Source: Chloroflexota bacterium (GTDB lineage: Bacteria; Chloroflexota; Dehalococcoidia; Lucifugimonadales; Australimonadaceae). Taken from it: a DNA stretch of 42,796 nt. The notes below the pieces were generated by a model. The model was not told where the DNA came from and made no database searches. It worked only from the letters and a program-made list of their open reading frames with translations. Positions 11,107 to 21,274 of the stretch are shown here, in pieces (within the stretch, counting starts at the first letter, position 1; every line of letters starts with the position of its first letter). The position numbers and the translations under genes are program-made. The stretch lies in NCBI GenBank assembly GCA_009838965.1, contig VXQP01000100.1, forward strand, positions 1 through 42,796, read 5' to 3'.

Positions 11107-12213
11107 ATGGGAGACGAGTTCGAGTTCAACCCCTGGTACGGCAACTTCCCGTACACCGACTTCATCAAGAGCGAAGGCATCCCCATCCACGAGGCGTACT
11201 CGGTCGACTGCCATACGGTCGAGGTCGAGCCGTGGGAGCGCCTCGGCGGCCTCGGCGCGTACGTGCACCTCGCCGGACGCTCCGACTACCTCTCGGCGTA
11301 CGTCGTCGAGATCCCGCCCGGCGGCGAGCTCAAGCCCGAGCAGCACATGCACGACAAGCTGGTGCACGTCGTCTCCGGGCGCGGCTCCACGATGATCGAG
11401 CGTCCGGACGGCCGCAGGTACTCGTTCGAGTGGGGGCCGAGCGCCATCTTCGCCATCCCGCTGAACGCGAAGCACCAGATCTTCAACGGCTCCGGCACCG
11501 AGCCCGCGCGGCTCGCCGCGGTCACGGACCTGCCCATCATCTTCAACATCTTCCGCAACCCGGACTTCATCTTCGACAACCCGGTCCAGTTTCCGGAGCG
11601 CTCCGATGTCTCCCGGTACTTCGACGGCGAGGGCGAGTTCCGCGAGGTGAAACCCGGACGCCACCAGTGGGAGACGAACTTCGTGCCGGAGCTCGTCAAC
11701 TTCGAGCTGCCGCCGTGGGCGGCGCGCGGCGCCGCGGGCAACAACATCCAGTTCCTGCTCGCCGACTCGTCCATGCACTGCCACATCTCGGAGTTCCAGC
11801 AGGGCACGTACAAGAAGGCGCACCGGCACAACGCGGGCGCGCACATCTTCTGCGTCACCGGCGAGGGCTACTCGCTCCTCTGGCACGAGGGCGAGAACCC
11901 GGTCGACACCGTGCGCGTCGACTGGAAGCCGGGCTCGCTGTACGCCCCGCCGGACGGGCCGACGTACCACCAGCACTTCAACGTCGCCGACGGGCCGTCG
12001 CGCTACCTCGTGTTCGGGTTCGGCGGCGCGCGCTACCCGGTGCTCGAATCGAAGATGGTCGGCTACGAGAACATGGACAAGTCCACGAAGGAAGGCGGCC
12101 ACCAGATCGAGTACCAGGACGAGGACCCGCGCGTGCTCGACCTGTACGAGAGCGAGCTCTCCAAGCGCGGCCTGAACTCCAAGATGCGGGAGTTCGTGGG
12201 GTCGCGGGGCTGA
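11107..12213 (+). CDS. Bicupin protein, tandem copy 1 (368 aa)
   Basis: A two-cupin-domain protein. Domain 1 (about residues 55-150) has KPEQHMHDKLVHVVSGRGST with cupin metal-ligand histidines and glutamate-like positions; domain 2 (about 235-310) has KKAHRHNAGAHIFCVTGEGYS and the late YHQHFNV histidine. The overall architecture recalls gentisate 1,2-dioxygenase-like bicupins, but the proteins are divergent and the substrate is unknown. AGGAGA lies before the ATG. The next gene is a same-length paralogue exactly 1299 bases downstream. Soluble; no signal peptide. An iron-dependent ring-cleaving or related oxygenase is one possibility, not shown by the sequence. Confidence 0.85.
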   Translation: MGDEFEFNPWYGNFPYTDFIKSEGIPIHEAYSVDCHTVEVEPWERLGGLGAYVHLAGRSDYLSAYVVEIPPGGELKPEQHMHDKLVHVVSGRGSTMIERPDGRRYSFEWGPSAIFAIPLNAKHQIFNGSGTEPARLAAVTDLPIIFNIFRNPDFIFDNPVQFPERSDVSRYFDGEGEFREVKPGRHQWETNFVPELVNFELPPWAARGAAGNNIQFLLADSSMHCHISEFQQGTYKKAHRHNAGAHIFCVTGEGYSLLWHEGENPVDTVRVDWKPGSLYAPPDGPTYHQHFNVADGPSRYLVFGFGGARYPVLESKMVGYENMDKSTKEGGHQIEYQDEDPRVLDLYESELSKRGLNSKMREFVGSRG

Positions 12214-12224
12214 GACCGGGGTGT

Positions 12225-12331
12225 GATGTAGGGGCATCCCTTGTGGGTGCCCTTGCCCCGAAGCGGGCGCCCACGAGGGACGCCCCTACACCTGACCAGG
12301 AGGCGAGGTTCCTGCCTCCGCAGGAACGACG
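12225..12331. repeat. Inverted pair of family B repeats plus a family A copy
   Basis: 12225-12255 (GATGTAGGGGCATCCCTTGT…) faces an inverted copy at about 12264-12290 (GGGCGCCCACGAGGGACGCC…), giving a hairpin with arms of about 25 bases that could act as a terminator of bicupin copy 1. A family A palindrome in reverse orientation follows at about 12303-12331. Confidence 0.75.
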
Positions 12332-12405
12332 CACGAGGGTGGCGGGCGTGGGCCGCGTCGTGTAGGCTCACGCCTGTCCCGAATACACGGAACGGAGCGT
12401 TACTC

Positions 12406-13512
12406 ATGGGCGACGAGATCGAGTTCAATCCCTGGTACGGCAACTTCCCGTACACCGACTTCATCAAGCAAGAGGGCATCCCGCTCCACGAGGCGTACGC
12501 CGTCGACTGCCACACGGTCGAGGTCGAGCCGTGGGAGCGCCTCGGCGGCCTCGGCGCGTACGTGCACCTCGCCGGACGCTCCGACTACCTCTCGGCGTAC
12601 GTCGTCGAGATCCCGCCCGGCGGCGAGCTCAAGCCCGAGCAGCACATGCACGACAAGCTGGTGCACGTCGTCTCCGGGCGCGGCTCCACGATGATCGAGC
12701 GTCCGGACGGCCGCAGGTACTCGTTCGAGTGGGGGCCGAGCGCCATCTTCGCCATCCCGCTGAACGCGAAGCACCAGATCTTCAACGGCTCCGGCACCGA
12801 GCCCGCGCGGCTCGCCGCGGTCACGGACCTGCCCATCATCTTCAACATCTTCCGCAACCCGGACTTCATCTTCGACAACCCGTTCGTGTTCCCGGAGCGG
12901 ATGGCGGCGGAGCGGTACTTCGACGGCGAGGGCGAGTTCCGGCAGGTGAAGCCGGGCCGCCACCAGTGGGAGACCTGCTTCGTGCCGGAGCTCGTCAACT
13001 TCGAGCTGCCGCCGTGGGTCGCCCGCGGCGCGGCGGGCAACAACATCCAGTTCCTTCTCGGCGACTCGTCGATGCACTGCCACATCTCGCAGTTCTTCGA
13101 GGGCACGTACAAGAAGGCGCACGCCCACAACTCGGGCGCGCACATCTTCTGCGTCACCGGCGAGGGCTACTCGCTGCTCTGGAAGGAGGGCGAGAACCCG
13201 GTCGACACGGTGCGCGTCGACTGGAAGCCCGGCACGCTCTACGCCCCGCCGGACGGCCCGACGTACCACCAGCACTTCAACGTCTCGGAGGGGCAGTCGC
13301 GCTACCTCGTGTTCGACTTCGGCGGCGCGCGCTACCCCGTTCTCGAGTCCAAGATGTGGAGCTACGAGAACATGGACAAGTCGGAGAAGGCCGGCGGGAT
13401 GCAGATCGAGTACGAGGACGAGGACCCGCGCATCCACGCGCTCTTCGAGAGCGAGTTGTCCAAGCGCGGCCTGAAGTCGCGCATGCACGAGTTCATCCCG
13501 ACCCTGGCGTGA
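12406..13512 (+). CDS. Bicupin protein, tandem copy 2 (368 aa)
   Basis: Paralogue of the preceding gene, with identical length and the same two cupin domains (KPEQHMHDKLVHVVSG; KKAHAHNSGAHIFCVTGEG; YHQHFNV). The ATG at 12406 is chosen because it aligns with copy 1; the longer upstream frame runs through repeats. Bases 12514-12882 are identical to 11215-11583 by my reading, while the second halves differ at many silent and some coding sites (for example WAARG/WVARG, SEFQQG/SQFFEG). The pair could be two subunits or two enzymes of differing specificity. The repeats between the genes suggest separate transcription units. Confidence 0.85.
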   Translation: MGDEIEFNPWYGNFPYTDFIKQEGIPLHEAYAVDCHTVEVEPWERLGGLGAYVHLAGRSDYLSAYVVEIPPGGELKPEQHMHDKLVHVVSGRGSTMIERPDGRRYSFEWGPSAIFAIPLNAKHQIFNGSGTEPARLAAVTDLPIIFNIFRNPDFIFDNPFVFPERMAAERYFDGEGEFRQVKPGRHQWETCFVPELVNFELPPWVARGAAGNNIQFLLGDSSMHCHISQFFEGTYKKAHAHNSGAHIFCVTGEGYSLLWKEGENPVDTVRVDWKPGTLYAPPDGPTYHQHFNVSEGQSRYLVFDFGGARYPVLESKMWSYENMDKSEKAGGMQIEYEDEDPRIHALFESELSKRGLKSRMHEFIPTLA

Positions 13513-13630: not shown

Positions 13631-14140
13631 ATGCAGTACACGCCCGCAGAACAGCCCGCAACGCCCATCGGGGCGACCGGCGCGACGTCGTTCCTCACGA
13701 AGCAGCGCAAGCTCATCATCGTCGGCATCGTGCTGCTCGCCGCGTTCGGCTACTTCGGCTTCACCGCGTTCCAGGCCGCGACCTCGTTCTACCTGACGGT
13801 CGACGAGCTCGTCGCGCAGGGGCCCGCCGCCGGAGAGTCGGTCAAGGTGAAGGGCGCGCTCGTCGAGGGCTCCTTCGACCGCGCGAGCACCGAGAACACC
13901 ATCGCAACGTTCCAGCTCCACGAGAACGGCGCACAGATCGACGCCACGTACGACGGCGTGCTGCCGGACCTCTTCTTCAACCCGCACTCGGAGATCGTGC
14001 TCGAGGGCACCTACGAACCGGGTGGGGTGTTCATGACCGACCGCGTCTTCGTGAAGTGCGCCTCCAAGTACCAGTCGCTCGAAGGCGAAGCCCCGTACGA
14101 GTATGAGGACTCCTACGCCACGACCGCCGACCCGGCCTGA
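13631..14140 (+). CDS. ccmE: Heme chaperone CcmE, cysteine (CxxxY) type
   Basis: CcmE carries heme covalently on the outer face of the membrane and passes it to cytochrome c synthetase. The 169-residue protein has one N-terminal membrane anchor (about residues 27-48, LIIVGIVLLAAFGYFGFTAF) followed by an OB-fold domain (YLTVDELVAQ, VKVKGALVEGSF, PHSEIVLEGTY). In the usual HxxxY motif the heme-binding His is replaced by Cys: VKCASKY, Cys143 and Tyr147. Cysteine-type CcmE is known from some sulfate reducers and archaea. The gene is separated from ccmABCD by about 4.4 kb. The downstream DUF309 gene overlaps by one base. No strong ribosome-binding site is visible. Confidence 0.85.
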   Translation: MQYTPAEQPATPIGATGATSFLTKQRKLIIVGIVLLAAFGYFGFTAFQAATSFYLTVDELVAQGPAAGESVKVKGALVEGSFDRASTENTIATFQLHENGAQIDATYDGVLPDLFFNPHSEIVLEGTYEPGGVFMTDRVFVKCASKYQSLEGEAPYEYEDSYATTADPA

Positions 14141-14619
14141 TGGCGCAGCAGCCGCTCACCCGCCCCCCGCAGGAGTTCCCCCATGGCGCACGCCGCCAGG
14201 CCGACGCGCAATGGCTCGCGTACGTCGCGGAGACCGGCGACACCGGCGACAGCGCGTCGCTGGCGGGGTCCGCAACGCTGCAGCGCGGCATCGCCGAGTT
14301 CAACGACGGGCGGTTCCGCGACAGCCACGACACGTTCGAGGAGCTGTGGAGGAGCACGCCGTACCCTGAGCGGCTCTTCCTGCTGGCGCTCACGAAACTC
14401 GGCGCGGGGTTCGCGCACGCGCTCCGCCGGAACGACAAGGGGATGCGCAGCCAGCTCACCGAGGCCGTCCGCATCCTGCGCGCGTTCGCTCCGGCCTACG
14501 CCGCCGTGGACACGCAGCGGCTGATCGCCGACGTCAGCGCCCGGCTCGCTCACGGCGACGGCCACTTCAGTCCGCCCTTCCCCACCATCGCCGGGACGGA
14601 AGACGATGCCCATGAGTAA
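14140..14619 (+). CDS. DUF309 domain protein (159 aa)
   Basis: The segment from about residue 50 matches DUF309: FNDGRFRDSHDTFEELWRST, then ERLFLLALTKLGAGFAHALRRN. The alpha-helical family has a conserved His/Glu pattern (here SHDTFEELW) and no agreed function; it has been suggested to be a small metal-binding or hydrolase-like fold, which I cannot confirm. Residues 1-45 are a poorly conserved extension. The ATG overlaps the ccmE stop by one base, so the two are co-translated. A GC hairpin follows the stop. Confidence 0.8.
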   Translation: MAQQPLTRPPQEFPHGARRQADAQWLAYVAETGDTGDSASLAGSATLQRGIAEFNDGRFRDSHDTFEELWRSTPYPERLFLLALTKLGAGFAHALRRNDKGMRSQLTEAVRILRAFAPAYAAVDTQRLIADVSARLAHGDGHFSPPFPTIAGTEDDAHE

Positions 14620-14625
14620 AAGAAC

Positions 14626-14654
14626 GCCCCGCCCCTCTTTCGAGAGGCGGGGCT
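14626..14654. terminator. Bidirectional GC hairpin between DUF309 and zinc-ribbon genes
   Basis: GCCCCGCC and GGCGGGGC pair around CCTCTTTCGAGA, with TCT/AGA extending the stem. It lies between two convergent genes and could end transcription from both sides, although neither side has a long T run. Confidence 0.5.
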
Positions 14655-14695
14655 CCGGCTTCGCCAGGCGCTGCGAGAAGGGCGAGCGCTTCGTC

Positions 14696-14887
14696 CTACG
14701 CCGCCGCCTTCACCGCCGCCAACCTCGCTGCCCTGAGCGCGCGTCCTTCCGCTTCGGCCCTGGCGAGTCGTCCGTCCGGCAGGTCGATCATGTGGCCGCA
14801 CTGGATGCACTCCAGGTAGGGGCCGTAGATGTCGACCGCGTCGTAAAGGTCCCCGTTACACCGCTTGCAGGCTTTGAAGAGTATCAT
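14696..14887 (-). CDS. Small zinc-ribbon protein (63 aa) divergent from hspR
   Basis: A 63-residue protein with two Cys-x-x-Cys knuckles, CKRC (residues 7-10) and CIQC (residues 27-30), separated by GDLYDAVDIYGPYLE: the spacing of a zinc ribbon. The C-terminal half is Ala/Arg-rich and helical (LARAEAEGRALRAARL). AAGGAGGAC precedes the ATG. No named family is recognised. Upstream lies the mirror-image promoter shared with hspR-grpE-dnaK, so this gene is a candidate HspR-regulated, stress-induced protein. Confidence 0.7.
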   Translation of the reverse strand: MILFKACKRCNGDLYDAVDIYGPYLECIQCGHMIDLPDGRLARAEAEGRALRAARLAAVKAAA

Positions 14888-14984
14888 CGGTGTCCTCCTT
14901 CCCCACTCTTCCTACAGAGAACTACGCTGGCCGGGCTGTTTCGGTTTCCTCTTCTTTCGTTCCGTTTCTCGTCGGGCTGGTCGC

Positions 14985-15023
14985 ATGATAAGAGTTGACA
15001 TGAATCGTGTCAATCCATATCAT
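14985..15023. promoter_or_regulatory. Symmetric divergent promoters with HspR-type operator
   Basis: Plus strand: TTGACA (14995-15000), 17-base spacer, TATCAT (15018-15023) towards hspR. Minus strand: TTGACA (15013-15008), 17-base spacer, TATCAT (14990-14985) towards the zinc-ribbon gene. The two -35 boxes form TTGACA-N7-TGTCAA. The known HAIR operator of HspR is CTTGAGT-N7-ACTCAAG, with the same seven-base gap and TTGA/TCAA arms. Binding here would block both promoters. Confidence 0.75.
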
Positions 15024-15087
15024 ACGGGTACCAGCATATGCGAGAGCGCCGACGCTCCCGCCTGAGGAGCGGACGAGGCATTCAACG

Positions 15088-15594
15088 ATGCAACAGCGAC
15101 GCAGACCAACGGCTACCGAACGGCTCCTGTCGTCCCTCCGGATGCCCGGCGAGGGAGAGCGCGCCGCACCGCCCGCACGCCGGGCGCAGGCCCCTCTGGA
15201 GCGCCCGCAAGCGTCCGTCCCGGAGGAGGGGCTGTACATCATCAGCGTGGCCGCGCGCATCCTGCACATGCACCCGCAGACGCTCCGCAAGTACGAGCGC
15301 GTGGGGCTCGTGCGGCCGTCGCGGACGGTCGGGATGCTGCGGCTGTATTCGGAGCGCGACATCGCGAAACTGCGCATGATCAAGCACCTCGTGGACGAGA
15401 TGCGCCTGAACCTTGCCGGCGTCGAGATGGCGATGGCCGTCTTCGACCGTCTCTCCTCGGCGATGGAAGCGGCGCAGGCCCCTCCCGCCCAGCCCGCACG
15501 TGCGGCCGTGCCGTTCGAGCAGGCGATGCAGGACATCCTGGAGATGTTCCTCGGAACGAGCAGACCGACACCCCGCAAGCCCGGAGAGCGATAG
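15088..15594 (+). CDS. hspR: MerR-family heat-shock repressor HspR
   Basis: HspR represses chaperone genes by binding HAIR inverted repeats; free DnaK level modulates its activity in actinobacteria. In this 168-residue protein a MerR-type winged helix-turn-helix begins near residue 50 (YIISVAARILHMHPQTLRKY, then ERVGLVRPSRTVG and RLYSERDIAKLRMI). The MHPQTLRKYE segment is the hallmark of HspR among MerR proteins. Residues 1-48 are a Pro/Ala/Arg-rich extension, and the C-terminus has a helix ending in QDILEMFLG. The ATG at 15088 gives the best start; an upstream extension would cross the promoter. It leads an hspR-grpE-dnaK operon and is probably self-regulated. Confidence 0.88.
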   Translation: MQQRRRPTATERLLSSLRMPGEGERAAPPARRAQAPLERPQASVPEEGLYIISVAARILHMHPQTLRKYERVGLVRPSRTVGMLRLYSERDIAKLRMIKHLVDEMRLNLAGVEMAMAVFDRLSSAMEAAQAPPAQPARAAVPFEQAMQDILEMFLGTSRPTPRKPGER

Positions 15595-15599
15595 ACCCG

Positions 15600-16151
15600 A
15601 TGTTTACCGCAGACGAAGCACACGAACAGACCGACGCCGGCCAGCCGGAGGCTGCCGAGGCGCAGGCCCCGGAGGACCCCATCGCGCAGTTGGAGCGCGA
15701 GCGCGACGAGATGAAGGCGATCGCCCAGCGCGCGCAGGCCGACCTGGTCAACTACAAGCGCAGGGCTGAGGAGGAGCGCTGGGCGCTCGCGCGCAGCGCG
15801 TCGAACAGCGTCGTCAGCAAGCTCCTCCCCATCGCCGACGACCTGCAGCGCGCAGTGGACGCGCTCCCGGACGACGCGCCGGAGAGCTGGAGCAGCGGGC
15901 TGCAGCTCGTCTCCCAGAACATGCGCGCACTGCTGGAGTCGGAAGGCGTCACCCGGTTCGAACCCGCGCCGGGCGACCCGTTCGACCCCGCCGAGCAGGA
16001 GGCCATCGCCTCCCAGCCGAGCGCCGAGCACCCCTCCGGCGCCGTCCTCATGACCATCAGCGCAGGCTACCGCGGCAGGGACCGCGTGCTGCGCGCCGCA
16101 CAGGTCGTCGTCTCGCAGGGCGCGCCAGGCGACACGACAACGAACGACTAA
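15600..16151 (+). CDS. grpE: Nucleotide exchange factor GrpE
   Basis: GrpE releases ADP from DnaK. The 183 residues comprise an acidic, disordered N-terminus (about 1-25), a long helix ([20 protein letters not shown], then NYKRRAEEE), and the beta-wing region ([20 protein letters not shown], then [24 protein letters not shown]) with the family's conserved FDP…EA and GY…RVLRPA-like patterns. It begins five bases after the hspR stop and is followed by dnaK after 19 bases, with AAGGAG in the gap. Confidence 0.92.
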
Positions 16152-16170: not shown

Positions 16171-18087
16171 ATGGCGAAGGTAATAGGGATAGACCTCGGA
16201 ACGACCAACTCGGCGATGGCCGTCATGGACGCAGGGGAGCCGCTCGTCCTCGAGAACACGGAAGGCGGGCGCACGACCCCGTCCGTCGTCGCCGTCAACC
16301 CCAAGAACGGCGAGCGGTACGTCGGCATGGTCGCCAAGCGGCAGGCGGTGACCAACCCGGTCAACACCGTCTACTCCGTGAAGCGGCTCATCGGGCGGAA
16401 GTTCACCGAGACCGAGGCGGAGCGCAAGACGCTCGGCTACGTCACCAAGGCCGGCAAGGCGGGAGACGCCGCCGTCGTCATGAACGACCGCGACTACTCC
16501 CCGCCGGAGATCTCCGCCATGGTGCTCCAGAAACTGAAGACCGACGCGGAGGCGAAGCTGGGTGAGCCGGTGAACCAGGCCGTCATCACGGTGCCCGCCT
16601 ACTTCAACGACAGCCAGCGGCAGGCGACCAAGGACGCCGGGACGATCGCGGGCCTGGAGGTGCTGCGCATCATCAACGAGCCCACCGCCGCGGCGCTCGC
16701 CTACGGACTCGACAAGCACCAGGACGAGGTCATCGCCGTCTACGATCTCGGCGGGGGCACCTTCGACATCTCCATCCTCCACATCGGCGACGGCGTCTTC
16801 GAGGTGAAGTCCACCAACGGCGACACGCACCTCGGCGGGGACGACTTCGACCAGCGCGTCATCGACTGGCTCGCCGACGAGTTCAAGCGCGAGCAGGGCA
16901 TCGACCTGCGCGACGACCGCATGGCCCTCCAGCGCCTGAAGGAGGCCGCCGAGCGCGCCAAGATCGAGCTCTCCAGCGCACAGCAGACGGAGATCAACCT
17001 GCCGTTCGTCACGGCGGACGCCTCCGGCCCCAAGCACCTCGCGATGAGCCTCACCCGCTCCAGGCTGGAGCAGCTGACCGTCGACCTCGTCGCCCGTACC
17101 GTCGGCCCGTGCCAGCAGGCGCTGAAGGACGCGGGCGTCAGCGCGGGCGACGTTGCGGAGGTCGTCCTCGTGGGCGGCATGACGCGCATGCCCGCCGTCA
17201 TCGACCGGGCGAAGGAGCTGTTCGGCAAGGAGCCGCACAAGGGCGTCAACCCGGACGAGGTCGTCGCCGTCGGCGCGGCCATCCAGGCCGGCGTCCTGCA
17301 GGGCGACGTCACCGACATCCTGCTGCTGGACGTGACGCCGCTCACGCTCGGCATCGAGACGCTCGGCGGCGTGGCGACGCCGCTCATCAAGCGCAACACC
17401 ACCATCCCCACGTCCATGAGCGAGATGTTCACCACCGCCGCGGACGGCCAGCCCAGCGTGGAGATCCACGTGCTGCAGGGCGAGCGCACGATGGCCGGCG
17501 AGAACAAGACGATAGGCCGCTTCAACCTGGACGGCATCGCGCCCGCGCCGCGCGGCATCCCGCAGATCGAGGTGTCGTTCGACCTGGACGCCAACGGCAT
17601 CCTGAACGTCTCCGCGAAGGACAAGGCCACCGGCAAGGAGCAGCGCATCACCATCACCGCGAGCTCCGGCCTCGCCAAGGACGAGGTCGAGCGCCTCGTG
17701 AAGGAGGCGGAGGCGCATGCCGAAGAGGACGCGCGCAAGCGCGAGCAGATCGAGGCGCGCAACATCGCCGACACCAGTGCCTACCAGGCCGAGAAGACGC
17801 TGCAGGAGTTCGGTGAGCAGATAGACGCCGACCTGAAGAGCGAGGTCGAGGCGCGCATCGCGGACGTGCGGAGCGTGCTCGCGCAGGAGGATGCGGACGC
17901 CGCGTCACTGCAGGCAGCCACCCAGGCGCTCTCCGCCGCCGTCCAGAAGATCGGCGAGGCGGTCTACGCCCGCCAGCAGGCCGAGGCGGCGTCAGCCTCC
18001 GGGCCGGACGACGCTCCGCCGTCTGACGAAGGCCCCGGCGACGCCGGGGACGACGACACCATCGAGGGCGAGTACCGCGAGGTGTAG
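16171..18087 (+). CDS. dnaK: Chaperone DnaK (Hsp70)
   Basis: The ATP-dependent Hsp70 chaperone, 638 aa, which is the usual length. Signatures are [16 protein letters not shown] (residues 4-19), [20 protein letters not shown] (about 132), [20 protein letters not shown] (about 190) and [20 protein letters not shown] (about 332). The substrate-binding domain begins [14 protein letters not shown]. The C-terminus ends in EGEYREV, matching the acidic tail that binds co-chaperones. AAGGAG precedes the ATG. No dnaJ follows in this operon; a co-chaperone must be encoded elsewhere. A strong hairpin ends the operon. Confidence 0.97.
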
Positions 18088-18225: not shown

Positions 18226-20046
18226 ATGAAGGCCATGCTTATCCGAAGACAAACACCCCTGGTCCTGCTGGCGATGCTCGTGGCGGCGGCTTTCGCGTCG
18301 CTGTTGCTGCTGCCCGCGTCCGGCCAGACCTTCGACAAAACAGAAGGCAAGACCGGCAGCGGCGGGTTCAGCGTCGGCGTGTTTGCCGGTATCGCGGATG
18401 CGCAGCTAGCGAAGAACGTATTCAACAGCACCTATAACACGTACGTCCCAACTAATCAGACTCCGGTTGCGCTCAGCTCGGGCATCACCAATCCCGGCGC
18501 GCACACCATGGGCGACACCGCGTACCTGGCGAACCCGGAGGTACAGCCTCAGTACACGTTCTTCGACGGAACGCTCTACGTCTCCAACGACCCCGAAGCG
18601 CACAACACGATCCTCATCACGGCGGTCGCTTCCGAAGTGACGCCGAACACCGACGGCTGCGTCGAGGCGACGGTGCGGAGCGGACGCGACACCATCACGG
18701 TGCAGATGCCGACGACGGCAGATACGGGCGGAAACACCTTCTACCAGGCGTTCGTCCGCGTCCTCGACCCACGCGTTGAGTTGCCACAGGGAACGCCGGA
18801 CTACGAGTCCAGCGACGGCCCGGACTGCGTGGAGGACACCAGTGTCACCCCCTCTCCCTCCTACTACGACACGGATGGGGTAGGACGGACCGAGATTGCC
18901 TCGATCCTCGGGCGGCACGGCGACACCGTCACCATCAGCATCGCTGGCGCCGGACAGGTGTCGCTGGAGGTGGACGGCGAGGGGCCGGATCTGGACGAGA
19001 TCACGCCGGAGCACGACAGCGCCTGGCGCTCTGGCCGCCTCGACTTCTCGTTCGAGGTGCGCGACGACGACTCCGGTCTGCGGCACGACGGCGAACTCGT
19101 GCGCTCGGCAGACGGCGACGACACGCAGGTCAACGGCGACCGCGACCAGGTGACCTCCGGCGAACCGCTCACCGTGCGCTCCCCCGGGCAGATCGCCGTG
19201 AACGGCAAGGCTGCCGACATAAGCCTCCGGGTGGGCTCCATGTCGGACATCACGGACATCGGGCGCTGGACGCTGCTCGGGAGCCGGCCGGGCGTCGCCT
19301 ACGAGTTCTCGGCGCGCGGGAACAACTTCGACGAGGGCCGCTACGTGATGGAGGTAACCGCCAGGGACCGCGCCGGCAACGAGACCATGAGCGTCGGGTG
19401 GTACGACGACATGGACGACCCTCAGCCGTACACGTTCACGATCGACGATACGGAGCCGTCCGTCCGCGCGGTGCAGGCAGGCGTCGGGTACGACACGCGC
19501 GAGGAGAAGGAGGTCCCCGACCGCAAGTCCATCATGGTGGACTTCGGTGAGGCGTTGCGCTCCGGGATCGACCACGAGCAGTTCACGGTCTCCGGTCATC
19601 GCGTGGTGGGCATCGTCCACCCGGGCCGCCTGTCGGGCGACGAGATGGCCATGGACATCGAAGGCAACCCGATAGACGACCCCCGCAGCCGCATCTACCT
19701 GCAGCTTGCGGACGAGCTGGCGTCCGACGAGACGCCGGACGTGCTGCTCTTCGGAGGGATCGTCTACGACCTCGCAGGCAACCCCAACGACTCCGTCGAC
19801 CGCACCGCGGAGGACACCGTCGCGCCGCTCTTCAGGGTCGGAGTGGCTGCGCTTGCGGAGGGGGTAACCCTCACCCCCCGGTCCCCTGCCCGCCAGGGAG
19901 GAAGGGAAGGGGCGGCTGGTCGCGAACGGCGACGGCGAGTTCGTCGTGGACGTACGCTCCGACGAGGAAGTGCGCCGCAGGCCGACGGTCTACTTCGTGG
20001 GCATCGACACGGTCGAGGGGACGAAGAACGGCACGAAGACCGGTAA
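18226..20046 (+). CDS. Secreted surface protein, 5' part of a gene split by a repeat-linked frameshift
   Basis: The N-terminus is a signal peptide (LVLLAMLVAAAFASLLLLPA, then SGQ). The following 500 or so residues are beta-rich, Asp/Gly/Thr-rich and low in Cys, with Ig-like or cadherin-like strands such as YVMEVTARDRAGNETM, TFTIDDTEPSVRAV and IVYDLAGNPNDSVD, as in large extracellular repeat proteins. Coherent sequence stops near 19850 (TVAPLFRVGVA). From there the frame runs through a family C repeat and continues as arginine-rich out-of-frame sequence to a stop at 20046. The surface protein resumes in another frame about 60 bases later (next entry). Probably a pseudogene or phase-variable gene; a sequencing error is less likely because the break coincides with a repeat. 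Confidence 0.7.
   Translation: MKAMLIRRQTPLVLLAMLVAAAFASLLLLPASGQTFDKTEGKTGSGGFSVGVFAGIADAQLAKNVFNSTYNTYVPTNQTPVALSSGITNPGAHTMGDTAYLANPEVQPQYTFFDGTLYVSNDPEAHNTILITAVASEVTPNTDGCVEATVRSGRDTITVQMPTTADTGGNTFYQAFVRVLDPRVELPQGTPDYESSDGPDCVEDTSVTPSPSYYDTDGVGRTEIASILGRHGDTVTISIAGAGQVSLEVDGEGPDLDEITPEHDSAWRSGRLDFSFEVRDDDSGLRHDGELVRSADGDDTQVNGDRDQVTSGEPLTVRSPGQIAVNGKAADISLRVGSMSDITDIGRWTLLGSRPGVAYEFSARGNNFDEGRYVMEVTARDRAGNETMSVGWYDDMDDPQPYTFTIDDTEPSVRAVQAGVGYDTREEKEVPDRKSIMVDFGEALRSGIDHEQFTVSGHRVVGIVHPGRLSGDEMAMDIEGNPIDDPRSRIYLQLADELASDETPDVLLFGGIVYDLAGNPNDSVDRTAEDTVAPLFRVGVAALAEGVTLTPRSPARQGGREGAAGRERRRRVRRGRTLRRGSAPQADGLLRGHRHGRGDEERHEDR
19865..19912. repeat. Family C repeat inserted within the surface-protein gene
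   Basis: Read on the minus strand, CCCCTTCCCTTCCTCCCTGG…GGGGGGTGAGGGT matches the unit at about 40434-40483 (CCCTCTCCCCTTGGGAGAGG…GGGGGTGAGGGT). It introduces a TAA (19865-19867) in the frame used downstream and shifts the reading frame. Confidence 0.7.
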
Positions 20047-21274
20047 GTACGTCTACTCGATACGGAGTGTGCAGACCGGCGGCGCGCTCGTGGAGCAGGA
20101 GGACCCGCTCCACTGGCGCAGGGCGTACGAGGCGTCCCGCCTGACCGGCCTCGGCGAACTGATCGGCGTGATCGTGTCCGCGGAGGACGAGAACCGCAAC
20201 GTCTTCTCGACGCCCGGCTGGAAGCCGGCTTCACGACAGGACAACCCGTCGGACGACGACGTACTCGACGTCGAGGCGATGGACGAGGCGGGGCTGCTGC
20301 TCGAGCTGGACACGGACTTCAACGACGACGCGACGCCGGAGTTGCGGGTGACCCCGCGCCGCGGGCAGGAAGACGACGAAACGGAGAGCGCGAGGCCGAT
20401 CGTGGCCATGCTGTTCTCAGCGGAGGGGGAGGAGTACGCGCTCTGCCCCTCGGGCACCAACGGCGGCTGCGGTGGCGACAACCCGGACGCGGAGTTCTCG
20501 GACTCGCACGCGAAGGTGTACATCACCGAGATCACGCTGAACGGAGGCGATGCGTCGGCGCGGTTGAGCAGGGTCGACGATGCGCAGTTCGCGCTCCAGG
20601 CGGGGAACCTGGCGCAGGGACGCCACGAGGTCGTCTACAAGGCGGTCGACGAGGCGGGCAACGAGGCTGAGGGCGAGTTCGCATTCTCGGTCGTGGCGCG
20701 CGGCGCCTACGAGATCGACATATCGCCAGGCTGGAACCTGATCTCGGTGCCGGGAACGCCGGTGGACCCGTCGCTGAACGCCGTGATTCCTCCCAGTGGG
20801 GGAATCTCGGCAGTGATGTCGTACCAGGACAGCAACTGGCTGACGGCGGCGGTGGATGAGGACGGTTCGTGGCGCGGCAGCCTGACGGAGATCGAGGCGG
20901 GCTACGGCTACTGGGTGTACGCGACGTCGTTCGCAACGGTCGCGCCGCTGATCCCGGAGCCGGAGACGACGTCGCTGCCGCCGACGGTCCGCGTGAACCA
21001 CGGCTGGAACCTGCTGGGCGTCATAGACCTGTTCCAGAACGCGGCAGGGAAGGCGCCGGGAGCAGGAGACGGGGACGGCGAAGCCGACAACTACTTCGGC
21101 AGCTTCGATTGGCGCGTCGCCTACACCTTCGACGGGCAGTACCACCGCTGGGTGCGCATCGCTCCGGAGGACGACAAGGACGACGAAGAAGAGGACGACG
21201 ACGAGCCGCCTGAGATCGTGAACGGCAGGGGCTACTGGGTGTGGTCCGCGGAGCCGGGCACGCTCGTACCGTAG
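19946..21274 (+). CDS. Surface protein, 3' part of the split gene
   Basis: The frame is open from 19868, but the first plausible start is GTG at 19946; coherent protein begins slightly earlier (LVANGDGEFVVDVRSDEE). No ribosome-binding site is visible, so independent translation is doubtful. The 442 residues include PTVYFVGIDTVEGTKNGTK, an Ig-like element (HEVVYKAVDEAGNEAEGEF) and two C-terminal copies of a Gly-Trp-Asn-Leu domain (SPGWNLISVPGTP and NHGWNLLGVIDLF), each ending in GYGYWVYA or GRGYWVWS. Such domains end many bacterial surface proteins. An acidic stretch (DDKDDEEEDDDE) may bind Ca2+. Together with the preceding entry it would make a protein of about 1000 residues. Confidence 0.65.
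   Translation: MDVRSDEEVRRRPTVYFVGIDTVEGTKNGTKTGKYVYSIRSVQTGGALVEQEDPLHWRRAYEASRLTGLGELIGVIVSAEDENRNVFSTPGWKPASRQDNPSDDDVLDVEAMDEAGLLLELDTDFNDDATPELRVTPRRGQEDDETESARPIVAMLFSAEGEEYALCPSGTNGGCGGDNPDAEFSDSHAKVYITEITLNGGDASARLSRVDDAQFALQAGNLAQGRHEVVYKAVDEAGNEAEGEFAFSVVARGAYEIDISPGWNLISVPGTPVDPSLNAVIPPSGGISAVMSYQDSNWLTAAVDEDGSWRGSLTEIEAGYGYWVYATSFATVAPLIPEPETTSLPPTVRVNHGWNLLGVIDLFQNAAGKAPGAGDGDGEADNYFGSFDWRVAYTFDGQYHRWVRIAPEDDKDDEEEDDDEPPEIVNGRGYWVWSAEPGTLVP

Follow-up and report, generated by a model that had tools for sequence, protein, structure and literature searches.

A candidate HspR operator shared by the divergent promoters of the dnaK operon and of a small zinc-ribbon gene in a SAR202-type Dehalococcoidia

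Introduction

Can a single repressor site control both the hspR-grpE-dnaK operon and a small gene transcribed away from it? The question is raised by positions 14985-15023 of the window (the whole stretch of 42,796 nucleotides that was analysed), where two promoters of opposite orientation share one palindrome. Judged by its sequence, the host is a SAR202-type member of the Dehalococcoidia (Chloroflexota), bacteria that live in the ocean and in sponges. No literature was found for HspR in combination with Dehalococcoidia, and publications on SAR202 and heat shock held nothing on HspR in title or abstract. A previous interpretation, made from the letters of the window alone (the sequence-only reading), proposed that one HspR dimer could switch off both promoters. 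The analysis reported here favors this proposal: a probability of roughly 0.8 is assigned to the reading in which the palindrome is a shared HspR operator for both promoters and the zinc-ribbon gene is a member of the HspR regulon. An abundant, essentially uncultured ocean lineage gains in this way a testable operator for its heat-shock regulon, which is probably extended by one unnamed, conserved gene family.

Divergent promoters and flanking genes

The gene identities given by the sequence-only reading on either side of the promoters were confirmed. The plus strand codes for an HspR-like repressor of the MerR type (15088..15594), which is the dnaK-linked paralogue HspR1 defined by its ORF, profile matches, a genus alignment and a tree, followed by GrpE (15600..16151) and DnaK (16171..18087), both assigned by profile matches. 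The minus strand codes for a 63-aa zinc-ribbon protein (14696..14887) with a CxxC-N16-CxxC motif and a helical tail that ends in Ala-Ala-Ala, as defined by its ORF, family comparison and a structural model. Its ribosome-binding site AAGGAGG is found in the sequence at 14894..14900 (minus strand). The gene is likely monocistronic since a terminator-like hairpin (12 pairs, 10 of them G-C) with a T-rich tail is present downstream of it (14626..14653, minus strand). A longer hspR frame starting at GTG 15007, which had been listed mechanically, was rejected because this codon falls within the palindrome and ATG 15088 is the start conserved in the genus alignment. Elsewhere in the window, two tandem cupin-like ORFs of 368 aa and about 370 aa in region 11107-13512 resemble each other closely and seem to stem from a duplication, and the overlapping ORFs 18226-20046 and 19946-21274 (region 18226-21274) look like a single long surface protein whose frame is interrupted by a frameshift.

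The segment 14985-15023 reads ATGATAAGAG TTGACA TGAATCG TGTCAA TCCATATCAT. A promoter consensus scan of positions 14000-16000 yielded exactly two sites, TTGACA-17-TATCAT, one per strand, each with 11/12 matches (shuffled sequences give 0.0). Both strands have the -35 and -10 hexamers of a sigma-70 promoter at the expected distance of 16-18 bp. The hspR-grpE-dnaK promoter is composed of the -35 box TTGACA at 14995..15000 and of the -10 box TATCAT at 15018..15023 (plus strand), while the same hexamers of the zinc-ribbon gene promoter are at 15008..15013 and 14985..14990, respectively (minus strand); the spacer is 17 bp in both cases. In addition to the scan, the assignment is based on conservation for the hspR-side -35 box, on the comparison of genomes with and without the zinc-ribbon gene for the opposite -35 box, and on spacing counts for the two -10 boxes. 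The mirror-image promoters of the sequence-only reading are thus exact in the window sequence, and the two -35 boxes do form the arms of the palindrome TTGACA-N7-TGTCAA (14995..15013, without strand). The 39-mer 14985-15023 is identical to its own reverse complement at 30 of its 39 positions. The exact palindrome occurs once in the 3.0 Mb genome, for 0.02 occurrences expected at its size and composition. The -35 boxes are 7 bp apart, so that two polymerases could probably not bind together.

Conservation of the palindrome

The sample was composed of 59 genomes of the order, from the host's own genus up to 40 families. Assembled DNA upstream of a dnaK-linked hspR gene is available in 54 of them; of the other five, three have contigs that stop short of this region and two carry only a second HspR paralogue. 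A palindrome with at most three arm mismatches is found upstream of the dnaK-linked hspR in all 54 testable genomes, its arms matching 10-12 of the 12 bases in every genome but one (9/12). Relatives lacking the inverted repeat or the divergent gene would have spoken against the sequence-only reading, and a search for them showed the repeat throughout and, in 39 of these 54 genomes, a small zinc-ribbon gene transcribed away from hspR. The arms are invariant in the genus, and in the genus alignment no other part of the intergenic DNA is as conserved as the block made of both arms and both -10 boxes. Inner palindrome positions outside the -35 boxes (6-7 and 11-12) are conserved in addition to the boxes themselves.

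The pattern TTGAYAYR-N3-YRTRTCAA has 58 sites in 45 of the 59 genomes of the order, to be compared with 3 sites for the reversed control pattern. In a phylum-wide sample of 151 genomes it matches the host genome and three of the 150 others, of which one belongs to the class of the host. The repeat is present in other orders of the class, with 10-12 of the 12 arm bases, at nearly all dnaK-linked hspR genes examined.

The HspR paralogues and the comparison with HAIR

HspR1 has a MerR-type helix-turn-helix domain (PF13411, E 3e-15; PF00376 also scores above its cut-off). The protein reaches 94.6 bits (E 2.7e-27) with the NCBIfam model of HspR, NF047375, whose curated cut-off is 105, and at E 1e-10 the only further match is a fused-dimer HspR model. 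As the score is about 10 bits under the curated cut-off, the protein is named HspR-like; the paralogue HspR2 scores 103 bits. Gene linkage is that of HspR: the order hspR-grpE-dnaK is found in nearly all genomes of the order and the paralogue occurs as dnaJ-hspR2-clp. The dnaK-linked HspR1 and the dnaJ/clp-linked HspR2 proteins separate in the tree, where all but one of the 18 HspR2 rows cluster together with full support. Most genomes code for the two paralogues and either is a candidate binder, which counts against our explanation.

The HspR operator of Streptomyces, Helicobacter and Campylobacter is HAIR, CTTGAGT-N7-ACTCAAG. The palindrome shares with it the geometry of the inverted repeat, TTGA-N11-TCAA, its position next to hspR-chaperone operons and its overlap with a promoter. 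It differs in the arms, TTGAYA and TRTCAA in place of CTTGAGT and ACTCAAG; of the six bases of the HAIR core TTGAGT, two are different here, a further point against our explanation. These arms (TTGACA or TTGATA) double as -35 boxes, and among the genomes that have the divergent gene, about half show exact -35 hexamers on the two strands. There is also a single site here and three in S. coelicolor. The likeness to HAIR put forward by the sequence-only reading holds for the geometry and fails for the arm sequence. Note that HspR of Helicobacter pylori is known to require HAIR-like sites whose arms are poorly conserved (PMC6102357).

Pattern sites outside the dnaK locus have a regulon-like distribution. 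They precede hsp20 in six members of the genus and in one other genus, the dnaJ-hspR2-clp genes in two genomes, an HspR-like gene in one and clpB in one. The repeat covers the -10 region of the hsp20 promoter and is hence more than a -35 box. In the host genome (G000), two HAIR-like sites, one perfect and one degenerate, are found just upstream of hsp20 (L104:1458-1519, contig C92), the perfect one overlying the -10 region of a TTGACA promoter. Three genomes (G000, G004 and G012) have hybrid sites in which one arm is ACTCAA, namely TTGATA-N7-ACTCAA at the host dnaJ-hspR2-clp operon (L098:3406-3426, contig C99) and TTGACA-N7-ACTCAA at the dnaJ-hspR2-clp genes of G012. In G022, 164 bp separate the dnaJ palindrome from the start codon downstream of it. 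Three perfect operator matches have no heat-shock gene beside them (G044:C12:75157, G018:C1:1981451 and G053:C158:1409); the first adjoins an RNA-methyltransferase-like gene.

The palindrome is named a HAIR-like HspR operator because of its TTGA-N11-TCAA spacing, of the hybrid sites with one HAIR arm and of its locations at heat-shock genes. This assignment, presumed by the sequence-only reading, is supported at the sequence level by the persistence of the palindrome where the divergent gene is missing, by its position over the hsp20 -10 region and by its occurrence before dnaJ-hspR2-clp and clpB; HspR would be the protein that binds it. The regulation is likened to the HspR-HAIR system and strict membership is not claimed, since HspR1 scores below the curated cut-off and the arms are not CTTGAGT.

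Linkage and promoter of the divergent zinc-ribbon gene

The 39 genomes with the divergent gene, which include one (G042) where the gene escaped the search and was recovered by reading frames, cover about 30 families. A -10 box at spacing 17 or 18 faces the zinc-ribbon gene in 26 of the 39 genomes (mean of 0.75 genomes at other spacings) and the hspR side in 33 of them (mean of 0.55). Of the 39 genomes that have the gene, 19 show an exact minus-strand TTGACA, compared with 0 of the 15 that lack it (Fisher p=4e-4, uncorrected for relatedness; the genomes being related, p-values overstate their independence). The -35 hexamers facing the gene are TTGACA (19), TTGATA (17), TTGATT (1), ATGATA (1) and TTAACA (1). 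TTGACA is kept more strictly on the hspR side, which suggests that the zinc-ribbon promoter is the weaker one.

Several of these numbers count against our explanation: 13 of the 39 genomes have no good -10 box facing the zinc-ribbon gene, the -35 box of this gene is not the exact consensus in 20 of 39, and a -10-like hexamer is still found on that side in 8 of the 15 genomes without the gene. A further point against it is that in several other orders of the class hspR and the zinc-ribbon gene are often separated by 0.6-1.4 kb. The mirror symmetry of the sequence-only reading, exact in the window, has TTGACA on both sides in only about half of the genomes; it accompanies the zinc-ribbon gene and is not universal. 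The operator was absent at five checked loci of zinc-ribbon family members that are not next to hspR, and it belongs therefore to the hspR locus and not to the zinc-ribbon family.

The zinc-ribbon protein and its carboxyl terminus

Members of the family have 52-75 aa and their invariant residues are four cysteines plus a few glycines and one aspartate between them. No family of Pfam or NCBIfam covers the protein. Searches of Pfam, NCBIfam, PDB sequences and PDB folds returned only generic ribbons (RPB9, topoisomerase I, LysW, Lar, ZifS) with weak scores, the RPB9- and topoisomerase-type ribbons among PDB folds having E values of 0.1 or worse. In the AlphaFold2 model (mean pLDDT 90.5) the zinc ribbon continues into a helix.

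Both the length and the sequence of the tail vary, yet its end is constrained: it is Ala-Ala in 28 of 39 proteins and Val-Ala in 7, together 35 of 39, while among other genes from the same genomes 7 of 336 end in this way (a first gene set had given 0/175; the better set of 336 was used). Most tmRNA tags found in the order terminate in LAA or VAA. A carboxyl-terminal Ala-Ala, the feature of ClpXP degrons of this class, is a demonstrated ClpXP degron in sigma-AntA, where it is conserved in 67 of 71 orthologues (PMC7142297). The zinc-ribbon family has in common with sigma-AntA and other proteins with an encoded Ala-Ala degron that this end, similar to that of the ssrA tag, is found in nearly all orthologues; it differs from sigma-AntA in that the end belongs to a zinc ribbon of 52-75 aa and that the degron is predicted from sequence. 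The Ala-Ala or Val-Ala end suggests a ClpXP-type degron, and its conservation and resemblance to tmRNA tags and sigma-AntA lead us to infer a short-lived protein. A heat-shock protein with a possible degradation tag of its own is thereby indicated. The degron-like end is new in this analysis and was absent from the sequence-only reading. In genome G029 (L221) the only listed tmRNA tag that ends in AV (GEREFALAV) coincides with an hspR-linked zinc ribbon that also ends in AV, a match hinting that the end of the protein may track the degron of its host.

Proposed regulation and alternative explanations

The 19-bp palindrome would be the operator of the HspR-type repressor encoded alongside. A bound dimer would cover the -35 boxes of the two divergent promoters and exclude RNA polymerase from hspR-grpE-dnaK and from the zinc-ribbon gene together, a compact layout in which the arms of the repressor site are -35 boxes on both strands. 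Under heat stress the repressor would be released and both units expressed. In actinobacteria, DnaK is the co-repressor of HspR and is titrated by unfolded protein. The overlap of the two promoters probably leaves room for a single polymerase at any one time. The conserved Ala-Ala end makes ClpXP-type proteolysis probable, and the short-lived zinc-ribbon protein would then appear as a pulse. Our best guess for its task is that of a small stress protein helping DnaK or tuning HspR. The claim of the sequence-only reading that HspR exerts shared control and that the zinc ribbon is an unrecognised heat-shock gene gains support from the comparison of sequences (palindrome in 54/54 genomes, gene in 39/54, TTGACA in 19/39 versus 0/15), and the gene is a probable, previously unnamed heat-shock gene. 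A more elaborate version is tentative, and we would sooner doubt than adopt it as a whole: a new SAR202 heat-shock family formed by a zinc ribbon with an ssrA-like degron, placed under the HspR dimer of the dnaK operon, whose self-limiting pulse modulates HspR or DnaK, and with operator arms that serve as -35 boxes for each of the two competing promoters.

The arms are exact sigma-70 -35 consensus hexamers, and the palindrome might be just two overlapping -35 boxes whose symmetry is a by-product, with no shared repressor site. This is very improbable considering that the palindrome persists in the 15 genomes without the zinc-ribbon gene, lies over the -10 and not the -35 region at hsp20, is 164 bp away from the start codon at the dnaJ gene of G022, and has conserved inner positions (6-7 and 11-12). 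It is unlikely, though less so, that the operator serves the dnaK operon only and that the zinc-ribbon gene is a bystander, constitutive or differently controlled. The lack of a clear -10 box facing the gene in about a third of the genomes, the family members at other loci of the genomes, which lack the operator, and the greater distance between the gene and hspR in other orders would fit such a bystander; the divergent linkage maintained over about 30 families, the exact TTGACA that faces the gene only where the gene is present (19/39 versus 0/15) and the mirror -10 spacing of 17-18 argue for common control.

Two further proposals concern the task of the protein and are compatible with shared control by HspR. 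In Firmicutes, McsA acts on CtsR and is encoded in the ctsR-mcsA-mcsB-clpC operon. A zinc-finger protein encoded beside a heat-shock repressor is common to both systems, a likeness of gene setting, whereas McsA shares the operon of its repressor and the zinc-ribbon gene is divergent. A similar role as direct HspR modulator, in which a zinc/cysteine sensor inactivates or stabilises HspR and the degron resets the system, agrees with the divergent pairing with the repressor gene, the four invariant cysteines and the degron-like end, and is a possibility that we consider less likely than not: family members occur away from hspR in the same genomes, which makes a general role as likely as HspR modulation. 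The same degree of doubt applies to a function like that of Ruc (Rv0991c), namely that of a redox-activated holdase which is induced by heat, binds zinc and hands its clients over to DnaK. The Mycobacterium tuberculosis protein is a heat-induced, redox-regulated zinc-ribbon chaperone under HrcA, and has with the present protein in common the size class, the two CxxC pairs, the linkage to chaperone genes, which for Ruc extends to Chloroflexi, and the control by a heat-shock repressor, predicted in the present case (PMC7448276). Ruc differs by its control by HrcA and SigH, and its tail is disordered while a helix is predicted here. Ruc is taken by us as an FmdB-type ribbon (PF09723). This profile matches 7 of 34 family members, the best E value (0.023) falling short of the gathering cut-off, and 19 of 20 genomes with the zinc ribbon also code for clear PF09723 proteins at other loci; an assignment of the family to Ruc/FmdB was rejected on these results.

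Additional members of the zinc-ribbon family

Copies of the family away from hspR (L044, L049, L061, L191, L194, L203) often have a GRP-R/K tail that resembles an AT-hook. Most of these copies, of which there are several per genome, also end in Ala-Ala or Val-Ala. In G003 (L006:2208-2633) the zinc-ribbon frame extends to 142 aa, past ...AAKVAA, which resembles a frameshift or a stop loss at the usual end of the protein.
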